Shown here in pieces: positions 46,291 to 59,600 of a stretch of 64,000 bases of DNA. A program made the translations under genes and the position numbers. The DNA comes from Lobosporangium transversale. Its lineage: Eukaryota; Mortierellomycota; Mortierellomycetes; Mortierellales; Mortierellaceae. The notes below the pieces were generated by a model that was not told where the DNA came from, searched no databases, and saw only the letters and a list, made by a program, of their open reading frames with translations. The DNA lies in contig NW_019028989.1 in the NCBI RefSeq assembly GCF_002105155.1, forward strand, positions 620,001-684,000, read 5' to 3'. Each line of letters opens with the position of its first letter. Within the stretch, counting starts at the first letter, position 1.

Positions 46291-48968
46291 TTATGATGCG
46301 GTTGTTTCTTGATATTTCCATACAAGGACGCGATTGGACCAATCGACTGTAACAATTGTGCTCAGATCTTGTGACACTGCTGTATCTCGAAACAATTCGT
46401 TGGAATCAGGATGGGAGAGTGTCTACGTTTGTTGATAAAAATAAAAAAAAAGTTACTGAATCAGATCTTTCATATTATCATAATATAGCTTTGAGCGTCT
46501 AGGCCCATAAGTTAGACTTACACCGGATGGCTTCTCTGCAATAATATTGCCATCACGAGCGCGTTTAGGCTTACGGGCCAAATCGTACACTAGAACTTTC
46601 CCATCTGTGGAGCCTGCCACAAGAATGTTTTGCCTCATCTCTGTGAGGTTGTTGCTTTTCGCTCTCTTTTTTTTGGATGATGTTGTTGCTACTGTTGATG
46701 GCACCGCAATCATATTCTCTGCCAATGTGAACTTTGTCCAGCTCTCGGTGATAGACCACTCAAGAATTGTCTTGAGCTCTGCATCTGTTGCTGTACTCTT
46801 TGTAGCCTCCCAAATAAGGATCTCGCCTTGCGAATTCTCCCTCGATGCAAACACGAATTCTCCATCATTTTCATCTTGTTCAGATTCATCCTGAGTCTTA
46901 TCTTTCTCATCGTTTTTGCCTTCAATTCCTTCGTTACCGCTAGGTTTTGTGCGGCCTTGATTACGGATACGTCCTCGGGCACGACCTTGTCCATGTGAAC
47001 TGCTACTTCCATTGTGCGATTTCTTATTTGCCATTGCGCTCTTATTATTGATTTCTATAGCGCCTAAGTCTGCTTTGAGGGCATATGACTCTGAGGAGAA
47101 ATGTGGGATGTAGATGATTTCATCCACGGACGACTCATGCCACTCCTGCGATGGTGGGTATATCTTTTGAGGCGTGGCATTATACAGCGATTTTTTCCCT
47201 GACTCCAAATTCTTGTTGACTTCTTTTGCAAGTTTGAAAAGATTGTACTGGGCCATAAGTCCCTTCTCAGTTCCAAAAATCAGATACTTTTCTGAGACCC
47301 CAATCGCTGTCACTGATGAGCCGTCCATTCCATCAAACTTTGCAAGACAGCTAAAGTAAGCGTAAGTGGAAGTAACAAAGGTAGACCAGGCAAATTTGTT
47401 AGATTGGTTCATTATGATTCTCTGCTATCTTGGTAGTTGTTGACAAACACATACCGGGCTTCCTTCTCAAAGTTATGAGGCGACCCAATGTCCCAAAGTC
47501 GTGCAGTTCCATCCACGGAAGCACCTCCAAAAAAAAAAAAAAAAAAAAAAAAAAGGTAGGATACAGGAGACATGGTGAGAGGGCGCGATACGACCATTAA
47601 AGTTGTTGTCGTTCACAAAGTAATATAGTGCACCTTACTGAAAAGCCAACGCGGGTTGGTGAGCGAAAATTTTAGTCGAAGAATTGATGCTGTGTGTCCA
47701 TGTAAGTACTTGTAGCAAATCCCCTGTAATGGATTAATCAGTTTGATACTACCCATGCGGCCTAATCCAAAATAGACAAAGAGATATTAGAGGAAGGGAA
47801 GAGGGATAGACATATGATGGTATTGGGATGGCCCAAAGCACCAAAGTATGCTGTTCTCCTTCTTACCTGCCACTGCCAGAATATTGGTTACATCATGGCG
47901 ATCCGACAATCCTGACCTATACTCTTGCGTAAAAGTGCTCCAGTCTAAACCACCTTCACCTCCGCCCTCATCAAATGAGGATGCTAAAGTCGTCCATGCT
48001 AAACACATAAATTCTTCTTCCTCCAAATGGCTATACTTGGCTATGATCCTTCCAAGGCTACAATCAATTAAGCAAACAGTGTTACCGCCGCAAGTTGCAA
48101 CCAAGCTACTGCTCTTTTTCAGGTAACTGGCTCCGTCCTTTGAGATATGTTGTTTCTGCTCCAGTTTCCTCCTTCTCTGGATGCCTCCATCGTCATGCTT
48201 ATACTCATCCTCGGCTCCTTTATTACACTCCTTTTGCCCTTTCCCAGCACTACGTTCAACTTGGTTCAGATCCTGCACGTGAGTTCGAATACTTGATAAC
48301 GTTGGTTCAAATGCCACTGCCCAAATATCAACGCTATCATCTTCGTGCCCATCGTGGGTGCTTCTGGAATGCGCTCTAAGCATGTGCTTTAAAACGTACT
48401 CATTTGAGGATTCGGTATGAGTGCCTTTCAATTTACCCTTTTTGGAACTCAATACATCTAAAGGCAATGAAAATCATAATCAGTCCTGACTTATTAAAGA
48501 AAGCCAACAAATAAAAAAAGAAGGTACAGCGTATTCTTTTACCATGATCTTACCCAGGAGGTTGGGATAAGCCCACAGCGAATATCTGTTACCTTCGCTC
48601 TGGCCTTGGTTTTGATCCTCATCCTTAGTTTCAGTAATTTCCCTGGGTTCGCTTCGATATTGATCGATACTTTCAGTAAATCTATTTGAGGTTGCTTTCT
48701 TATCTTTTAAATTAGATGATTTGGAGTTTCCTTTCGAGTTATGTTTCGGCTGCTTAGCAACAGAGTTTGCTGTAACATCCTTCGCATTGCTGAGCTTAGG
48801 GATTTTCTTAGCACGTCGCGGTGTTGCTGTCAATGTTTCTGAGCTATCGAAACGTTCCACAAGGCCGAGTCGCTTTATTGACGCTTGGGAAGTCCCATCC
48901 TGAATGCTTCTGGAGGATCTCTGGACAGAAGATCCCATCTTTGACACGGCAGATCTTTTGGGCGGCAT
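46291..48968 (-). CDS. LRWD1/ORCA-like WD40 protein
   Basis: Six exons in transcript order (48554-48968, 47867-48457, 47639-47761, 47455-47524, 46522-47419, 46291-46422) close in phase to 742 residues. The N-terminal 150 residues are Lys/Ser-rich and disordered. WD40 blades follow: DIWAVAFEP, VATCGGNTVCLIDC, FMCLAWTTL, ILAVAGRMGSIKLINP, HGHTASILRLKFS, SASVDGTARLWDIG, ILVAGSTDGKVLVYDL, and a last blade STIVTVDWSNRVLVWKY in the small terminal exon. The CGGNTVCLIDC and AWTTL blades resemble human LRWD1 (ORCA), which binds the origin recognition complex and repressive histone marks. The leucine-rich repeats of LRWD1 are absent, so the basic N-terminus differs. The related Polycomb protein EED is the main alternative. 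An acidic insert interrupts one blade. The exon 4/5 junction is the least certain. Confidence 0.7.
47529..47554. repeat. Homopolymer tract in an intron of the LRWD1-like gene
   Basis: A 26-nt A run on the plus strand (T on the sense strand) lies just upstream of the GGAG acceptor of exon 4. Confidence 0.9.
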
Positions 48969-49098
48969 TCTTAAAAGATCATTAATTTAATCGTGTTCTG
49001 AAAATCGTTTTAAAGAGTACAGCACAATCTTGGCCCTATTACATCACTGAAAACAGTCACGTAAATGGTCCTCGACGCCTGCACTCCGAACTAGACTA

Positions 49099-49116
49099 GC
49101 GTGTTTGCTGACACGC
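49099..49116 (-). ncRNA. Hairpin just downstream of the Fanzor stop, candidate guide-RNA scaffold region
   Basis: GCGTGT and ACACGC form a perfect 6-bp stem around TTGCTG, 33 bases past the Fanzor stop codon. In Fanzor and TnpB systems the omega RNA is transcribed from the nuclease 3' end through the adjoining element end, so this is the expected place for it. A single short hairpin is weak evidence. Confidence 0.2.
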
Positions 49117-49149
49117 AGATATTGTCTATACTATGTAAAACTATGTGAG

Positions 49150-51807
49150 CTACATATGCTCAATGTGAATTCTCTTGCTACCTCTAGGCTCCTCTCCTTG
49201 CTCGGTCGGCGTCTGTCGCTTGATCGCTCTCTTTTCTCCACTCTCCATGGAAATATTCTTATTTTTGTTTGGCACAAGGTAGGATGGTCGTTCTTGATAA
49301 AGAAGATGACCTTGGACAATGTTGGCTATGTTATGCCCTGCCATGATGTCTCTGTGCATAAATGCCTTGCAGCTGCTGCAATACAGTCGACAGATCTCAA
49401 CCTGACCAACAAATTCTTGACAGATAGGACATTTTTTTGAGGTGTAGTATTCGTTTACGCCAACAACGATGTACCCAAGAGATCGGGCCTAATGAGGTAG
49501 GAGAGCAAGATAAGTTACATTGTGACAACAACGGCAATATAAAGCAATGACCAACAGTTTTCCCATGGCTAGCTTGGCCGGCCACTGTTTCAACTACTAC
49601 TTGAAACAGTATAGCCACCGGCCAAGTTTATTTTGTAATATTGAGCGAGTCCTTACCTTATTCACAAAATACGATTGGAATGATTCGTGTAACGAAGACA
49701 GCCTGGTATTAGACGAAAACTTGCCAAGACCCACTCCGATCACCACCTTATCTCCTTCATTTACCTTCGTTCCAATTGACCCGCCAACCATCTTGAGCAG
49801 ACTGTTGGCAATCTTCTTGTATTCTTCAACCCGGGCCCTTTTCGCATCCCACCTATGTTTCTTGATGACATTGTTGCTGCTATAGAAGGAATCTAGGTCT
49901 TTCTCCACGTCTCTAAGCTTCTCAATGTAGTTTTTTATGCTTGAATCATTTCCACGAAGAGAAGGTAGGCTACCCCCAATGTCACTAATGGACTGTGAAC
50001 CGTAGACCGCTGCTGCCTTCCGCCGCTCCATCCAATGTCGGTATTTGAGAGTGGGCTAGTACGCTGCCTTCTGCTTGACGGCCAAGTTGTAAAATCTGGA
50101 TGTCTGGGTCGCCGTGTTGGTGAGCTCAGTACTTGGTAACAACGCGCTTGCTTCGACGATGAAAGACTGCCCTAAATCTAGACCTAAAATCTTGATTTCT
50201 TCTAGCTTGCAGCCCCAAAGGTCGGTGATATCTTGCTTAGTACTCACTACATTCCTTATCTCGGTCAAGAAATAGTCTGTGCCGCCAAGAGTGGAATTGA
50301 TTCTACAAGGTAATCTTTCCTCGGGAAGTCGCCGATATTTTACCGCATTGAGTTCGTTCAATTTGAATGCTAGCAATTGGAGACGAAACCCATCAGTTCG
50401 AATTGACCCTCGTAAAATATAACCGCGCTTGTCGTAAGTCTGAGGCCCGGGCACGAAGTCATCCTCTCGAATGTATCGAATGTGCTCTCTCATCATGCTG
50501 AGTGGCATTATGGAAGTTGTAGCCTTAAATCCCTTGTATTTCTTGCGCTCTTCCTCTTCAAAGCCACCAATGTCAGTTAGCAGACTTGTAATGAGATACC
50601 CAGGGTCCCTGCCCGAGAGCCACACTCTAAGGTCGGCTTTCGAGGGTGTGCAAGTGAAGTCACCTCTGGCATAACCTTGAAGTTCAGCTTTGAGCTCATT
50701 GTCTTGCCAAAAGATCTCAATCAGTTCTAACTCTGAGAGATTTATAAAGCCATCTTCAAAAGTGGACAACGGAGCAAGTTTTCGACTGTTATTGCAGATT
50801 TTGTTCAGGCGAACAAAGTTCTCTACTGCGGATATGCTAGGGTGCTTGTTATGTCTACAGGTAGCAGACCCTTGTTCTTGAGAGCTTCGATCTGTTATAA
50901 AAGGAATGAAGATATTAGAATATCATTCGCCGTTATCTTACTCAATGATAAAATTTGAGTGGGGATGATAGCACTCATTAGAGCTAGGCGCGCATACCTT
51001 TTCACAAAGTGCTTGTGCGCCCTCCTTGTAATGCTTCCTTAACTCAGCCTTGAGTTGCGTGGCAGTTGATCTCAGGATAACTGACCCTGGATAACGCATT
51101 CTTGTATTGATCGAGCCAGCATCTGCCATAGCTGGCAAAAAGTCCTTGGCCTTATGGATGAAGTTGAGCACATGAGGATCCTTTACGTTGCCAGTTGGGG
51201 GCCTCTTGTTATAGATACACACGAGAAGTGATAGCAGGAAGGTCGTGTTGGCATCATTCGTTTCGTTCTCATCATTCTCATCATTATCCTTCTCAGCTCC
51301 ATTGGGGCCTTCATTGCCGGCCACGCTCTTGCTAAATATACGTGGGCAGATAAGATCGAGCAGTTTTCTGTCTGTGTTGCTGACATCGGTAGCTGAAGCT
51401 GCTCAATGTACTGGCCAATAGCTCTCTGGCAAGTGCGTTTGGTCTTCGAAGCATGGCGAACGACTTCTTGGAGGCAGGCTTTAATCTTGGATCTCAATTG
51501 GGGCTTATCAGTCAATATTCTATTTAGGTTGCCGTTGACCGTCCCAATGTCAAGAGTCCTAGTTGGGTGTTCATACTGCATAGCCCTAACTAAGTCTGTT
51601 TTATCCATTTCGTCCACCGCTTTTTGTGGCTTTTTCGACTTTTCCTTCTCTTTCTTTTTCTTCTGCTTGTTAGAGTCAAGGGCATTCGTATTGGGATTGT
51701 CTTTGTATTTTCTCCCTGAAGAGTGAGAAGGAGGCCATTGGGCAGGAGCTCGGTCAACAGAGCGAAAGATATTGAATGTATCTGAGTGATTGTTCGACTG
51801 GGATGAA
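49150..51807 (-). pseudogene. Fanzor (eukaryotic TnpB-like RNA-guided nuclease), broken
   Basis: Three exons (50998-51807, 49657-50891, 49150-49488) form the C-terminal two thirds of a gene that starts with the XPG nuclease exons. After a Lys-rich linker and helical region comes the Fanzor signature: RGSIRTDGFRLQLL, RuvC-I ILGLDLGQSF (Asp codon 50176), KYRHWMERRK, VGLGKF and SLHESFQSYF, then GVNEYYTSKKCPIC (Glu codon 49450, the relocated RuvC-II residue of Fanzor/TnpB2), a CPIC/CSSC zinc ribbon and HRDIMAGHNI (Asp codon 49348). TnpB and Fanzor are RNA-guided DNA endonucleases spread by transposons. Lesions: a TAG stop at 50056 where neighbours suggest Gln, a one-base deletion near 51410 and another near 50845. 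Phases otherwise close exactly. The catalytic residues remain, so the decay is probably recent. The intron at 49489-49656 contains an inverted repeat. Confidence 0.82.
49573..49626. repeat. Imperfect inverted repeat in the Fanzor intron
   Basis: The arms CTTGGCCGG and CCGGCCAAG enclose an inner perfect 10-bp stem, ACTGTTTCAA/TTGAAACAGT, around a 7-base loop; an asymmetric bulge (CC versus ATAGCCA) separates the two stems. The whole is 54 bp. No target-site duplication is evident. It could be a tiny MITE or a structured RNA element of the transposon. Confidence 0.65.
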
Positions 51808-51910
51808 CTATTGACGGAACCAATGTCCATGTGAAGGTTGTAAAGGCGGATTAGTTCGATGAAAATGTAGGGAAAAGGGATAAAAAGTAAGGCTAATGTC
51901 AGTGCATTAC

Positions 51911-52146
51911 CTCTTGTCTATTCTCCCATTCACTTTTAATTGCTCGCGGATTGGCGCCAGTCTCTGTAGTAGGCTTTCATGAGTCGCGGGAACATGTATG
52001 GAAGTCTGAAATGCAACAGGAAGAGATTTTCTCTGTTGCAGATCCACGAAAACCCTTATAGAGTCTTCAAAATATCCGTCAGCTACCTCCTTTCCCCTCA
52101 CCTCATTGTGTCTCAAGTAATCCTGGATCATGTTCCTGGGATCTTT

Positions 52147-52183
<37 letters not shown>

Positions 52184-53038
52184 AGAGAGAGTTTGATGTG
52201 AAATTCAGTCTTTTAGAAGCGTGCAATCCTGTGGTATACCATTACCTTCTCCAACCTGCTCCTTGACAATTCTGTAGTTGGTGACACTTCCAAGCCGGGA
52301 AATGTTGCTTGTGTAGTCGTTCTTGCTCACGATACACAGCACCGTCAATTGCGATCGTGTAATGTTTAGGGTGGTGAGTACGTCTGCAAGCTTGTACACT
52401 AAAATGCGATCTCTTGAGATAGGGCGCCAAACCGTTGAGATATTCTTGTATGCGAGCATGTCACTGTCTCGGGAGACAACTACATCCTCGAGCTGGCAAT
52501 CAGTCGCAATAGCAACGTCTGCCTCGAATTGACATTCTTGAACAAGCCAGCTCTTGTTCCGCATGTATTTCGCGAATGATTCTCGTGCTTCTTTTGACCA
52601 ATGAAAGGCCTTATCCAACGCCTTTATTACGGCAACGAACTGTTTCTTTCGGACTCGACTCTTGCTTTGCACGCGTTAGTATAGTTCATCGAGCCCTTGT
52701 TGGGCGTCCATCAATGCCTTGGCTCGTACTTCCTCTCGATATATATGAGTATGTTTTTTTTCCTCACAGGCGTCACCGTCAAGATACAGGATAAGGTTTT
52801 CTGGTGTTCCATACTTCCCCAGCTCTCTTTCCATGATCTTGTGGGCTGTATCGAGGGAATGATTGGAATATGCGTTTTGAATTATGGGATGTAAGGTTCC
52901 TAGGACATCGAACCTTATGTAGGCGTTGCAATTGAAGGGATTGAAAGGATTAGAGGTGGCGCAGATTAACGAATGGTAGTGGAGAGTTGCCTCGTAGCCT
53001 GTCTTTAGAAGAAAAGACCAGAGGCCCTCGATTCCCAT
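51911..53038 (-). pseudogene. FEN1/XPG-family 5' nuclease, N-terminal part of the Fanzor gene
   Basis: Exons 52246-53038 and 51911-52142 encode an XPG-type nuclease. Motifs in order: MGIEGLWSFLLKTGY at the start, FDVLGTLHP, YLDGDACEEKKHTHIYREE (metal-binding Asp), then the I-domain EADVAIATDCQLEDVVVSRD followed by SDML, and the helix-two-turn-helix VSKNDYTSNISRLG. These carry the acidic metal ligands of flap endonucleases, which cut 5' flaps and branched DNA. One TAA stop (52676) interrupts the frame where Gln would fit. The second exon ends in phase 2 at a GTAATG donor, and the next exon begins at 51807 in the matching phase, so the simplest reading is one fused gene running into the Fanzor (about 1,136 codons if unbroken). 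A separate XPG gene ending at the TAA overlapping that donor (51907) is the alternative. Confidence 0.75.
52144..52180. repeat. Adjacent poly(T) and poly(A) tracts in the XPG intron
   Basis: T10 followed directly by A27 (plus strand) lies at the acceptor side of the intron at 52143-52245. It is the only mixed T/A homopolymer junction in the window. Confidence 0.9.
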
Positions 53039-53405
53039 TGCTAAGAAGTGATATCAATATGGATATGGGAATATCGATGGAGCTGTTAGAGAGAAAGAGG
53101 TGTTGAAAAAAAATCGTGTGAATTTTTGCATGGTGTTTCACGTGGCATCTTTCCAAAAAAAAAAAAAATTGACTGGTGTGAACGGGCATGGTGTTTTTTA
53201 ACATAAAAATTGGCAAATACACTAGCGAGTCAGTGAAGCATCACACAAGGAACCGTCGGCGGCACTTGATGGCATTATCATTGTCAATATGAATATATAT
53301 AGATATATATATATGCCTAGCGCGCTGCCGCACCGAAGCAAAACTTACCAGTGCTTGCTGCGTGTTCTTCTCTGCTCTGTTTGAAATCTTGATCATAACC
53401 TAGGC
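53039..53405. promoter_or_regulatory. Divergent promoter region of the transposon
   Basis: This 367-base gap separates the two divergent start codons. It includes an A-run near 53156, and an alternating TA tract (53293-53314) lies about 95 bases upstream of the transposase ATG as a TATA-like element. Nothing else is recognisable. Confidence 0.5.
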
Positions 53406-56195
53406 ATGGACCCCTTGACGATAAAATACATCTTACCATACTCGCTAAATTTTAATCCACATCAGTCGGTAGCCCCCTATCCCATTCCTAAGGAGATACC
53501 CGACCCTTTTACTACGGCTTTCACATTCAACGCGTTCCGTGAATTTTGGAGCCAAGAAAGACTTGCGTACCAATGGGCAGAGTGTTCGGAAAAGAACTCT
53601 CGATTCATTCTTGCCCACAAAGAGAATCTGGATAAACCACTTCCTACGCACAGTAAGGCATATCCTGGCCGCGGTCGTCCACGTGAATTCGATTGGACAA
53701 TCAAGTACGTCTGTTGGCGCCAAGGTCCGAAAGAAGAGTTGACCATTCACCGGGAATCAGTTGGTAATAAATGTCCGGTCTATATCAGGATTTAAAAACC
53801 TGTTGAGCAAGACCAGGTCATGGTGGAGTATTATAGACATCACAACCATGAAACTTCAACAAAGTCTAGGGTCGCTCTTCCTCTGAGCCCTAACGAGCGC
53901 AACTGGATGAAGCCAATGGTCTCCAGCAGCCATGACTGGAAATATATCAAGAATGAATTGAGGCCAAGTGAAGAAGCTCTTCAGGTAATGGTCGTCCAAG
54001 CATGTATTAAATATTTTTGCATTTACTTAGGCAATGACTAATATCCCATGACTTACAGGTTGAGGCAGAGACGAAAAGTGTCCCTCCAAGCTTCCTTATC
54101 ACTTACAACGATGCACGCGCAACGATTTATCGTAAACAGATAAAGGAATTTACAAGAGGTGATAGCATTGTTACCAGTGTTGAGGGATGGATGAAGGAAA
54201 TTCAAGCAAACGGGGGTAAAGGATGGTTTGCTAATGAAATTGGTGTCAACGACCCACAAAGCTATTTGATTGCCTGGTGTACGAAGTTCCAATTGGAGGT
54301 AAGGATTGCTCAGATCCGATATGATCCAACTGGCGTTAACGTTACTTACCGTCCTCGTTTCTGTCTTCAACAGGTCGCAAAGGACAATAGCTTGATAGCC
54401 TGCATGGACTCTACACGGAGAGTCGCTATGTCTCTGAGAGAAGATAAGGATAAAAAGAGCAATAAGGGAAAGGGCAAAAAGGTAGGCTCGTTCCCATCCC
54501 TCTTCACTTTATAAAGGTGACAGGAAATTCCATTTCCTTTTTGAGTCACCTAAAGTGAAGGGGCTGGGAACGAGCCTAGCAAAAAGGATAGAAGTTCTTC
54601 AGCCTGCCTGTTTACGATCCTTGTCAAGGATCGAGTTTTGAGAAAATGCGTTCCAGTTGCCCATATGCTATGCAGCTCAGAGTCATCGTATGTTTGAGCA
54701 TAGTCTAGCAACGATGTGAAGATGGTGCTTATCAAACTGAGACCATTGTATTATGTTCAACAACAGGTTCCTCATAAAGAGATGGTTATCATGGCTCAGA
54801 ACCGAGTGCGGTTTCAAGATGTCAAAGTTCATGGTAGACTGTTCTGTGACACAGAGTGAGGCCATTCAAGAGGTATTCCCTTCCGCATCAGTTTACTTCT
54901 GCCACTTTCATGTGTAGAAGTTATGGGAAGACCGCATGAGGGATGTGTTCAAGGTAAGATATATCATGTTAATGCTCAATCAAGATACCTTTGGCGATAA
55001 TAACATTTTAATGCGACTCCATACTCTTTAGGAGCGATACTGGGTTTGCTTAAAGAAATGCGCATTACAGGGTCTGACGAAAAGTTAATGACATCTGGAA
55101 AGGTATCAAGGACCAATTTTATGATCCGAGCAATGACAAAACAAGCCTCTTCTTTAACTATATGGAAAAGAACTGGATCGCGAAAGAGAAGAGACCAAGA
55201 TGGGTGCTTTTCGTGAGAGAGGTAAGATAAAGCACCAGTAAACGGCGGTATTAAATGACTTCTTCGACGAATTTCAATATCCGACATCCTAATACACCTA
55301 ATAGGACTACCAGCACGTAAATACAAACAACCTTCTGGAGTCTTGGTTCAACGCTTTGGAGACACATGCACTGGAAGGGAAGCGCGGTTTACGAATTGAT
55401 TTACTCATATATAAATTGCAGGGACCCATTGACCAGGACTTCAGGACACAGTATTTCAAGGTCAAAAATGGAATACAACTCGCAACGCTTTCACAGTACG
55501 ACCAAGAAAGACTGGCGAGAGCAATGGCAGTAAGTACCGTGGAGGCAAGGGCCATGGTATGCGAGAAGTTAGTCGAGAAAGAAGTATGTGTCGAAAATCG
55601 ATAATATCAAAAGTTTGATTGTATATGGATAGGCTCTAATCTCTTTCGTTCTTCAAAGTTCGCGGTAAAGTCGTCCGAAGAATCTGGAGTAGAGTATTCC
55701 GTTGCCGCGGATGTAGAGAGGGGCCTCCTTCAGTCATGTTCAAGCCCCGACTATGTCCGACAGAAGATCCCTTGCAAACACATGTGTTTAGTGTCAAGGA
55801 TTTACGACGGCTTCGATGTTCAATATGCCGCTGCTCCTTCGCACTTTGAACATCAGAACAGGCACTTAGAGTTCGACTTAGGGCCTCCTCTCGAGAGCTT
55901 TATCTCACCAGTTTTACTGCGTGAAGAAAAGAAGAGAAAAAGAGAAGAAGTCACCACCCAAGCGTTTGAAGAGTGTGAAGAAGAGCTTATGGTCCAGTGG
56001 AAGGAGCTGGGCCGTATAGTATATAATAGGCAGAAAAGAAAGTGCACATTGAAGGATATGCAAGACTCAATAGCAGAGCTGAGGAATGTAATCCGTACAA
56101 TGACAGCGGGTGTTCAAGCACCTGAACAAATTGACGATCCCTTTGTTTTGGGCCAAGATTGCGCTACACCCGTTTTAAAGAGTGACGTCACGTGA
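53406..56195 (+). pseudogene. Mutator-like (MULE) transposase with SWIM finger, broken
   Basis: Seven exons (53406-53984, 54059-54298, 54374-54687, 54767-54953, 55032-55221, 55305-55583, 55659-56195) read as a MULE transposase. After a FAR1/FLYWCH-like N-terminus (WTIKYVCWRQG) the DDE core shows the first Asp in IACMDSTRRV, the second in KFMVDCSVTQSEAIQEVFP followed by CHFHV, and the Glu in NTNNLLESWFNALE. A C-terminal SWIM zinc finger (CSSPDYVRQKIPCKHM) precedes a coiled coil. MULE transposases cut and paste DNA with 9-11-bp target duplications. Lesions: TAA at 53793, a 96-bp MITE plus duplicated 9 bp inside exon 3, TAG at 54915, at least one frameshift in exon 5 (its length is not compatible with the flanking phases), and Ser replacing the second SWIM Cys. 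All other exon phases match. Confidence 0.82.
54474..54587. mobile_element. 96-bp MITE with 9-bp target-site duplication
   Basis: The direct repeats GCAAAAAGG (54474-54482 and 54579-54587) flank a 96-bp palindromic insert (54483-54578). Its ends are perfect 14-bp inverted repeats, TAGGCTCGTTCCCA, and the complementarity continues through TTCACTTTA and GGTGAC, with a four-base insertion in the left arm; an inner AGGAAA/TTTCCT stem closes the loop. Removing the insert and one copy of the repeat rejoins the transposase frame. A 9-bp duplication fits mobilisation by a MULE-type transposase. Confidence 0.85.
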
Positions 56196-56666
56196 ACCGC
56201 GATCAAAGTCCTCAGCAAACTTGACAGCCGGCCCACATCCAATCATTCTGGCTTTCTTTCCCCTTACTGACAACTGATTTTATGTCCATAAGAGGCGGGA
56301 GCAGGATCCCTATTAGACAAATTGAAGAAAAGTGGCTGAACTTTGTGATGTAGTCATGTATTACTACCCACTACGCCCAGTTGGTTCAAACACTGTGGAT
56401 CTATATTATCTTGCCACCAATTTGGTTTATCAATCAAACATCTTTATATGCTCAATGCGATCCAGGAACAACCGTCCTCAACTTCAACTTCGGGTGCTTA
56501 ATTACTTCACACAGCACATTCATTTCATTTCTTGGCTACTGAAGATTTTTTTAAACTCCTATTTATTTCTTTAATGTATTTCCTTTTACTAACATACTTT
56601 ACAAAACTAATCAAGACCGTACACAAACATCTTTTCCCTCCGAGTTCTTTGCTTGCAGAATCAGAT
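56196..56666. other. Spacer between transposase and RPB1 3' ends
   Basis: Two convergent 3' ends meet here. The right end of the transposon must lie in this stretch, and the RPB1 poly(A) signal is at 56562. No open frame or terminal repeat is convincing. Confidence 0.5.
56562..56567 (-). terminator. AATAAA polyadenylation signal of RPB1 (minus strand)
   Basis: TTTATT on the plus strand reads AATAAA on the minus strand, 100 bases past the RPB1 stop codon. Confidence 0.5.
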
Positions 56667-59600
56667 TTACTCTTCATCATCAGAGTACTTGGCATTTGAG
56701 GATTTACCTTGGCCAGAAGAACTAGAGCTGTTGCTGCCTCCCACAGGGTTGTATCCAGGTCGTCCTGGTGTCGCTGAACCACTGCCTTGTCCACCAGATG
56801 AGTAATCCATCGGCGAGAATGACGTCGCGCTAGGAGAGTAACTTGGAGAATAACTTGGACTCGCTGGTGAATAGCTCGGGCTCGTAGGTGAGTAGCTAGG
56901 ACTTGTTGGCGAATACGAAGGCGACGTTGGGGAATAGCTCGGGCTCGTGGGCGAGTAGCTTGGTGACGTGGGTGAATACGAAGGTGATGTAGGAGAATAC
57001 GAAGGCGACGTAGGAGAATACGAGGGCGAAGTAGGAGAATACGAAGGCGATGTAGGAGAATACGAAGGTGATGTAGGAGAGTATGAAGGTGATGTGGGTG
57101 AATACGATGGCGACGTAGGCGAATATGATGGCGATGTAGGTGAGTACGATGGCGATGTTGGAGAGTATGAAGGTGATGTAGGAGAGTAAGCCGGCGATGT
57201 CGCTCCATAGCCGTGGCTCGTAGGGGAGTAGCTCGGGCTCGTAGGCGAATAGCTTGGAGATGTGGGTGAGTAACTTGGTGATGTTGGCGAATAAGACGGC
57301 GATGTAGGTGAGTAAGATGGCGACGTAGGAGAATATGAGGGTGATGTCGGCGAGTAAGAAGGCGAGGTAGGTGAGTACGATGGGGACGTAGGGGAATATG
57401 ATGGGGATGTAGGGGAATAGTTGGGTGATGTAGGGCTATAGCTGGGTGATGTGGGGCTATACCCAGGACTTGTTGCATACATTGGCGAACTGGGTGAATA
57501 GCCAGGCGAAGCTGGGGAGTATCCAGGACTGGTCGCGCCAAACGGGCTTGCTGCATCCCATGTACCTGCTCCCATCGGAGAACTTGCTCCAGAATTGCCC
57601 ATTGGCGAGAACACCGCATCCATTGGCGATCCTGGGTGTGAAAAGTCCACATACTGCGGTGACCGTCCATCGTATGGTGTCATCTGTGATGCTAAATTAT
57701 CACTGTTCATACCCATGCCCATATTCACACCCATCATGCCTGGACGTGGTCCTTCAACAACAGTACTGAGCATCTTCTCATCCAGCATTAGATCAAATTC
57801 ACCCGTGCCCAAAGGTGCCAACTGACCTAACATGATATTTTCAGCAACACCACGGCAGTCATCCAGCTCTCCTACTGCTGCAGCCTCCATCAAAATTTCA
57901 ACAGTCTCCTCAAAAGAACAGCGCATCAGTGCACCCGTCTCAGCACGATTGATACCATGACGTGTGATGGCCATCAAGTGGCCACGGTGCGTCATCACAT
58001 CACACAGCAACGACAAGTGGCGATAGTTGACATAAGAACCATCAAACTCGATAACTCCGCGCAACTCTTTCAACAATGCCTGACGTGCCGCCTCGATACC
58101 TAGTACGGCCATCACTTCTCCACAGTTGTTCGAGTATGTACGTGTGGCATCGACGTCCTCCTCGCACATGACCGCCTTCAGATTCGATCCACTTGTTTCT
58201 AGGTACCATTCCTTCTGAGAGTCGAACGTTCCATCTGATTTGATGTATGTCTTCTTCTTCTCCACCATGTAAACGCGTGCAATATTCTTGATGCCACGCA
58301 GGCTGATTGAACTAAGCAAACTGTTCTCAATCTTCTTTAAAAACACATCTTCCTCGTCTTGTACGTCGGGCTGCTTGTCCGCTGCTTCCTCATTGATAAT
58401 ACGGCAGCGAATGATCAACCTCTCAGCGTTGTCATCTGAACAAATACACATCAAATCACGTTGAAAGTCCTCTGATATCTTGTTCGAGACATCCGCCATT
58501 GTCAGCTTCTTATCAAGCATCATCTTACGGTCCAACTCAATACGAAGCAACCAAGGTGATGTCCTGGATAAATTCAGATCCTCATCGGGCATCGCATAGT
58601 ATGCAGATACAAAGTCCTGATCCTCTTCAATATTAGTGTTCTCGGGATCAGGATCATAATGAATCTCAGTCGCCGACGTAACTTTCTTCAAGTTAGTGTA
58701 CTCCAAAGCAACCTGCACCTGCTTAGCACGCTCCATGTTACGAGCACATTCTGGTGTCAGATAGACGTTCAGCGAAGGCGTCTTGATGTTCGTCGCCACA
58801 TTGATAATCTCTTTCAAACGAGGAACACCAAGTGTCACATTCTTCGACGACACTCCAGCATAATGGAACGTGTTGAGCGTCATCTGCGTTGCAGGCTCTC
58901 CAATCGATTGTGCTGCAACCGTTCCAACCATCTCACCAGGATTGACAATTGCATGTGCAAAACGCGAACCAATCTCACCTACAACCCAATCAAATGCTTC
59001 ACGAGTCAAATGGAACTCTTCAATCACCCTACGCACCGCCAATGTCGATCGGATCAACATACGGAACAACAATGTTGCGTTATCTTGAGCCTCTACACTG
59101 ATACGGTCCGTGCCGCGTACCACTATAAGCTGCTTCTCCAAATTCTTAACACTCTCCAAAATGTGGCGGGGATCAAGGTCACTTGGTCGCTTATGATCTA
59201 CGTGAAACATTTGTTTCGAGTTCCAAATGTATCGCTTGATGTTAGTGGGAAGGGGCCACGAGTCATCGCCTTCGGTGAAGATGTAGTTGCGCAGAAGATG
59301 GCGGTCGGCCTCAAGCTGCCTGAATTCCTGCTCCAATAGTGTCTGCATGTCAGGTTCACCACGCTTCACTGACTCTATATCTGCCTCCTCCATTGCCTTG
59401 ATCACAGAGTAATCTAAAGCACCCGGCTTGAAGCCTTTAGCTTTATCTGTAAGATCAATCTGAAACTTCTTCTCAAACTGTGCGTTCGACATCTTCACGG
59501 TGTCAATGCGCTGCTTCTCAACGTGGCAAGCATCCATACCGTCCTCGCCGTAACAGAATTGAACCACGTGCCCGAGAGAGTTTCTCACAGTGCCATCATA

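Follow-up and report, generated by a model that had tools for sequence, protein, structure and literature searches.

Organization of the XPG-Fanzor locus

We analysed a 64,000-nucleotide stretch of the Lobosporangium transversale genome (RefSeq assembly GCF_002105155.1, contig NW_019028989.1, positions 620,001 to 684,000), hereafter the window. On its minus strand, between positions 53038 and 49150, an XPG-type nuclease lies directly 5' of a Fanzor. The coding region is laid out in five exons separated by GT...AG introns of 103, 103, 106 and 168 nt. Reading frames and splice sites suggest a transposon gene, present in the window as a dead copy, whose product would probably have joined an XPG/FEN1/EXO1-type nuclease to a Fanzor through splicing in phase 2. 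The case for such a fusion rests on splice-site and frame evidence within one genome. The exons and the junction intron are as follows.

52246-53038, minus strand: exon 1, XPG/FEN1-type nuclease with the motifs MGIEGL, FDVLGT, LDGD, FEAD, RDSD and KNDY; in-frame TAA at 52678-52676
51911-52142, minus strand: exon 2, XPG half, C-terminal helical part
51808-51910, minus strand: junction intron GTAATG...CAATAG, 103 nt, phase 2; contains the lineage-conserved ATGGACATTG at 51830-51821
50998-51807, minus strand: exon 3, N-terminal region of the Fanzor; frameshift near 51400 and about 90 nt lost near 51711
49657-50891, minus strand: exon 4, middle of the Fanzor and part of RuvC; RuvC Asp at 50178-50176, in-frame TAG at 50058-50056
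49150-49488, minus strand: exon 5, relocated Glu, zinc ribbon (TNB) and HRD; PF07282, E = 1.3e-10

The window copy is a dead fossil. As sequenced, it is unable to make the protein because it contains two in-frame stops (TAA 52678-52676 and TAG 50058-50056), at least two frameshifts, placed near 51400 and 50870 from the reading frames, and a deletion of about 90 nt near 51712/51711, as evidenced by comparison with 6/6 relatives. A preliminary description of this DNA had proposed that the five exons close exactly if two single-base deletions are allowed; the five GT...AG exons do fit, but the damage is heavier than was thought. The codon that is TAA at 52678-52676 is not a stop in the copies L009, L010 and L011. 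In the degenerate copies L012, L013 and L014, the same codon is TGA, a repeated loss at one position.

Identity of the two halves

The N-terminal half is an XPG/FEN1/EXO1-type 5' nuclease by profile, fold and acidic residues, and 5' flap or exonuclease activity is predicted for it. The second XPG piece of the window passes the Pfam XPG_I cut-off (25.3 versus 24.9 bits). Seven acidic residues are invariant across four aligned rows (D36, D85, E171, D173, D190, D192 and D243), which we take to be the known active-site residues of XPG/FEN1/EXO1 nucleases. The EAD and DSD motifs are those of DNA flap nucleases such as EXO1. The fold of the XPG half matches EXO1 and FEN1, with approximately 10-18% identity in structural alignments. 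Four stronger XPG_I matches found elsewhere in the genome, at C76, C1, C95 and C55, are probably the host's own repair genes.

By its motifs and profile matches, the C-terminal half is a Fanzor, a eukaryotic relative of TnpB. The Cas12f1-like_TNB zinc-ribbon profile (PF07282) scores above its cut-off on exon 5, and the Asp of GLDLG (50178-50176), the Glu of NEYYT (49452-49450), a C4 ribbon and HRD are all found. The relocated Glu is regarded as a Fanzor trait, as in the preliminary description, although a term search of the literature did not bring it up. The preliminary description had recognized both the XPG motifs directly upstream on the same strand and these Fanzor residues, and on both points it was right. 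Profile similarity was detected to the TnpB-like L79 (1.4e-4) and, weakly, to SpuFz1 (0.013); the guided_TnpB profile matched at 7.7e-6, below its curated cut-off. The AlphaFold model of exon 3 is poor (pLDDT 45.5). The Fanzor motif, as given in the available part of PMC3627910, is D-X(125,275)-[TS][TS]XX-[C4 zinc finger]-X(5,50)-RD. The spliced window row, with X at the TAG, agrees with it: the RuvC Asp is followed after 188 residues by TS-KK, then by C4 and KAFMH-RD.

The 3' region of the element is conserved among the window, L009, L010 and L015. No significant RNA fold was obtained in the 3' regions of the window (z = -1.11), L010 (0.81), L043 (-1.00) or L044 (1.18), and a single compensatory pair was seen in the folded 3' region. 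Rfam gave 0 matches within the window, and neither Rfam nor folding of the 3' regions revealed a guide (omega) RNA. The 3' end of the window element is also represented, by a fragment with 97% identity, at L028:5071-5301, with no further match of at least 60 bp in the 8 kb fetched.

Recurrence of the XPG-Fanzor pair

The window DNA matches 56 stretches of the genome, itself included. In the same genome, the zinc-ribbon family has at least 69 matches and the XPG protein at least 110. An XPG match is found on the same strand, upstream within 5 kb, for 39/69 zinc-ribbon matches, while approximately 0.4 would be expected; the pairing is therefore not a chance neighbourhood, and the XPG-Fanzor gene arrangement is real and recurrent in this genome. 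On viral contigs, 42 and 23 pattern matches included no relative confirmed by the Fanzor profile or the XPG profile.

Two additional loci differ in composition. At G000:C106:394247-394387, a good zinc-ribbon match (1.1e-10) has no XPG match within 5 kb among the matches listed, and may be a Fanzor without XPG. At L045:344-2824, an unbroken 827-residue frame combines a diverged XPG domain (1.8e-13) with approximately 500 further residues and has no zinc-ribbon match nearby. L045 gives a borderline signal for the Fanzor N-terminus (hmmsearch 0.0029 in a set of 501 sequences; 3.2% probability with HHalign); this locus was not counted as a fusion and is possibly a domesticated relative.

The junction in families A and B

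Two diverged families, A and B, also carry the pair. XPG identity to the window copy is 36-39% in family A and 25-30% in most rows of family B. The RuvC, Glu and RD motifs, which read GLDLG, GVNEYYT and HRD in the window, are GIDPG, GCHEYYT and DRD in family A, and GCDPG, GAHEFYT and DRD in family B.

The family A XPG frame, 341 residues long and unbroken in 14 aligned rows, ends in ...CCCAG followed by GTAAGC. This donor and the acceptor CTAATTAG are kept in 15/15 fetched copies. With the phase-2 join, seven of the 15 copies meet no stop before the fetched DNA runs out; in either of the other phases a stop follows within 30 codons. Family B features a 349-residue XPG frame, the exon of which likewise ends in phase 2 at GTAAG, and both splice sites are present in 10 of 11 fetched copies. 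Here the phase-2 join gives 151-160 open codons, up to where the DNA ends, in 7/10 copies, as against 7 and 12 codons in the other phases. In the eleventh copy, L046, a deletion across the junction leaves a single 512-residue XPG-Fanzor frame. Such a frame, the outcome of one event and expected by chance in one case out of three, was given no weight in support of a fusion.

In the open copies (seven of each family), the joined exon has no ATG in family A and none before codon 113 in family B, yet it is conserved ahead of that codon. A comparison of family A with family B (L055 and L068) revealed that the first 40 or so codons past the acceptor are alike only in the joined frame, which scored 99 (0/1000 shuffles reached this), as against 12-20 for the eight other frame pairs. 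Conservation of the joined frame without an early ATG is what a fused protein predicts, and not what a separate Fanzor gene predicts. On these frame and splice-site data, an XPG-Fanzor fusion gene is very probable in families A and B.

The junction in the lineage of the window

The join of 51911 to 51807 is in phase 2, as the preliminary description had stated for the GTAATG...CAATAG intron. However, the three phases of the window are open for 69, 69 and 17 codons, and the joined frame is not uniquely open. In the sister copy L009 the joined frame is the longest (83, 57 and 17 codons), and the degenerate copy L051 also joins in phase 2. In L047, likewise degenerate, the XPG C-terminus runs, as judged by eye, into the Fanzor start in one frame and without an intron. 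Fusion is likely in this lineage also, though less firmly indicated than in families A and B.

Several observations weigh against a fused product. The block ATGGACATTG, whose first base lies 23 nt ahead of exon 3, is the same in 7/7 copies of the lineage, a set that includes the near twins L009/window and L012/L013; its ATG would give a Fanzor-only start. An in-frame TAA overlaps the donor and would end the XPG protein if the intron were left unspliced. The acceptor is lost in L048, and codon-position tests at the junction were either uninformative or gave a weak signal. In family A, 8/15 joined frames break 30-91 codons past the junction and 5/15 copies have a joined-frame ATG, located at codon 29 or codon 60; in family B, 3/10 joined frames break at 27, 84 and 131 codons. 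The XPG_I profile falls below its cut-off for both families. As many as 30/69 zinc-ribbon matches, either shortened copies or XPG-less Fanzors, have no XPG match nearby. Lastly, all six copies followed over the whole Fanzor length (L043, L044, L046, L052, L053 and a copy on C1) carry a lesion, and none of them is an intact full-length gene.

Some of these data are accounted for by two separate adjacent genes, with XPG ending at the TAA that overlaps the donor and the Fanzor starting from a separate ATG (position 51830 in the window). The invariance of ATGGACATTG extends to L018, which has lost most of XPG, and to L017, the upstream DNA of which cannot be aligned, and an in-frame ATG close to the start of the Fanzor exon is also found in L048 and L051. 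In families A and B, the Fanzor exon has no early ATG, yet its first codons are conserved in the XPG frame. Moreover, family A carries an ATG-less CTTGACATTG that lies almost exactly as far from its acceptor as ATGGACATTG does, and the ATGGACATTG/CTTGACATTG block may belong to the branch site and not mark a start codon. We had initially taken ATGGACATTG as proof of a separate Fanzor gene; families A and B weakened this idea without removing it. Two separate genes seem rather improbable. The in-frame fusion proposed in the preliminary description is thus upheld by families A and B, the phase of L051 and the frame of L047, but the lineage of the window may make separate products. Regarding a conserved stop and a separate Fanzor start in related copies, the picture is mixed within that lineage (donor TAA, ATG in 7/7) and free of an early ATG in families A and B.

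The transposon and its surroundings

The gene pair lies within a transposon resembling Mutator-like elements (MULEs), which had been missed in the preliminary description together with its inverted ends, its duplication and a plus-strand transposase gene. Its features are listed below.

49015-56170, no strand: MULE-like transposon with both genes, approximately 7.16 kb, delimited by a flanking direct repeat and inverted ends
49006-49014, no strand: left target-site duplication CGTTTTAAA, 9 bp
56171-56179, no strand: right target-site duplication CGTTTTAAA, 9 bp
49015-49036, plus strand: left terminal inverted repeat (TIR)
56150-56170, minus strand: right TIR
53385-56170, plus strand: divergent gene, degenerate, probably for a MULE-type transposase, judged by Pfam on pieces of L009
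54483-54578, plus strand: 96-bp insertion resembling a miniature inverted-repeat transposable element (MITE), within the transposase gene; 18-bp inverted ends (94%)

The alignment of the window element to L009, the copy on contig 59, spans 49015 to 56138; the two are 97-98% identical over most of their length and 94% identical in one part. The direct repeat of the window is 13 nt long (CGTTTTAAAGAGT, at 49006 and 56171) and was read as a 9-bp duplication by analogy with L009, in which the repeat, located by eye at the same places, is CCACACATG. The arms of the inverted pair I1 (49005-49036 and 56150-56181) are 75% complementary, and their outer parts correspond to the duplication. TIRs and target duplications of about 9 bp are therefore seen in two copies, window and L009, with two different duplications. 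Among the degenerate transposase pieces of L009, SWIM (2.7e-7) is above the cut-off, and both FAR1 (0.0016) and MULE (1.8e-4, 22.3 bits versus a cut-off of 27.6) are below; the SWIM piece of the window itself scores only 0.16. Family A elements share a right end and a subterminal inverted repeat, but no left end and no duplication was identified, and for this reason the family A element is not called a MULE.

Among the matches listed, 16 other places match the 96-bp MITE-like element at 93-100%. Pieces of a minus-strand WD-repeat gene, one of them LRWD1-like (PF23215, 1.3e-11), occupy 46453-48986, and the transposon sits directly upstream of the likely start of this gene. On the other side, a 2.1-kb segment (56382-58500) recurs with 100% identity, in inverted orientation, roughly 17 kb further on (G000:C13:695384-697502), reflecting either an assembly effect or an inverted duplication of recent date. 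Positions 56860-57455 hold direct repeats that overlap one another, mostly 190-430 bp in length and 69-79% alike.

Comparison with known systems

According to the available part of Bao and Jurka 2013 (PMC3627910), MuDr-like elements with 9-bp duplications carry Fanzor1 proteins in Mucoromycota, namely in Rhizopus, Phycomyces and Mucor (ROr-4, PBl-3 and MCi-4), and a MuDR transposase is said to be lacking from them. The L. transversale element shares with them a Fanzor with RuvC and zinc ribbon, a MuDr/MULE-like setting, TIRs and 9-bp duplications. In contrast to them, as far as described there, it has a transposase gene and an N-terminal XPG domain. The word "flap" is absent from the text of PMC3627910.

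Resemblance to SpuFz1, GtFz1 and PpFz1 lies in the RuvC acidic residues and the C-terminal CCCC zinc ribbon (available parts of PMC10432273 and PMC11423790). Most Fz1 proteins are stated to be 600-700 residues long with a relatively conserved domain organization; the exception noted in the same excerpt, PpFz1, has an insertion in RuvC, and not an N-terminal nuclease as found here (PMC11423790). The fold and the seven acidic residues of the XPG half are common to the EXO1/FEN1/XPG 5' nucleases, from which it differs in its low identity (approximately 10-18%) and in being part of a transposon-borne fusion.

In the portions of PMC10711439 and PMC10432273 covered by term searches, flap nucleases are not mentioned; "fused" refers only to expression tags in the former (three times, in one place) and is absent from the latter. 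In the openly accessible literature searched, no paper combined Fanzor and XPG, in line with the preliminary description, which knew of no such fusion. There, TnpB together with XPG gave a sole, unrelated match on Cas12a R-loops, and no paper dealt with Mortierella, transposable elements and Mutator. Among the matches listed for Fanzor with FEN1, flap endonuclease or PIN domain, only PMC12719977, on large-cargo integration, contains the term Fanzor in its available part; none of those listed for Fanzor with mucoromycote names does.

Predicted product and role

In nucleases of the TnpB type, an RNA derived from the end of the element selects the DNA sites that are cut; enzymes of the FEN1/EXO1 group remove 5' flaps or resect 5' ends. 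Summing the exons of different copies, the predicted protein would comprise approximately 1,050-1,250 residues, of which about 340 form the N-terminal XPG/FEN1/EXO1-type part. Were the joined mRNA made and translated, the fusion might cut the site picked by the guide RNA, probably the emptied or allelic site. The XPG half could then trim or resect the 5' ends at the break, exposing 3' strands, and repair would copy the element back instead of simply rejoining the ends. By analogy with the two enzyme groups, we tentatively suggest this repair-steering role, which is the less favoured side of an uncertain case.

The two halves might also be fused but the XPG half serve transposition, trimming flaps at the element ends after excision or strand transfer, with no link to guided cutting. 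The transposon of the window family does carry its own transposase gene, which suits this view; against it, the two halves stand together again in diverged families, where the XPG acidic residues are kept, and in 39/69 zinc-ribbon matches, a hint of joint use but no proof. Overall, such a role seems somewhat unlikely. In a further alternative, the XPG half would process RNA, for instance by releasing the mature guide RNA from the mRNA 3' end. PIN-like nucleases can in general act on RNA, but the EAD and DSD motifs and the fold point to a DNA flap nuclease, and the 3' regions analysed above have no significant RNA structure. We regard RNA processing as very unlikely.

With respect to the XPG-Fanzor fusion, the junction intron might act as a switch, since unspliced mRNA would stop right after XPG. 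The unspliced frame stops at once past XPG in the window, L009, L048 and L051, as well as in families A and B. This stop is automatic, because the donor GTAA stands in phase 2, and is hence no evidence for a switch by itself. Optional splicing could yield two products: an XPG/EXO1-like nuclease from unspliced mRNA and, from spliced mRNA, an XPG-Fanzor "cut-and-resect" enzyme that cuts where its guide directs, processes the 5' ends on its own and so forces homology-directed copying of the element. We consider this reading of the frames speculative and, on balance, unlikely; if it is true, an RNA-guided nuclease occurring in nature would carry its own nuclease for steering repair.

Fanzors are the eukaryotic RNA-guided nucleases. 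Their probable, recurrent fusion with an EXO1/FEN1-type nuclease makes it testable whether the element controls the repair of the guided break. For editors biased towards homology-directed repair, such an enzyme would offer a template that evolved in nature.

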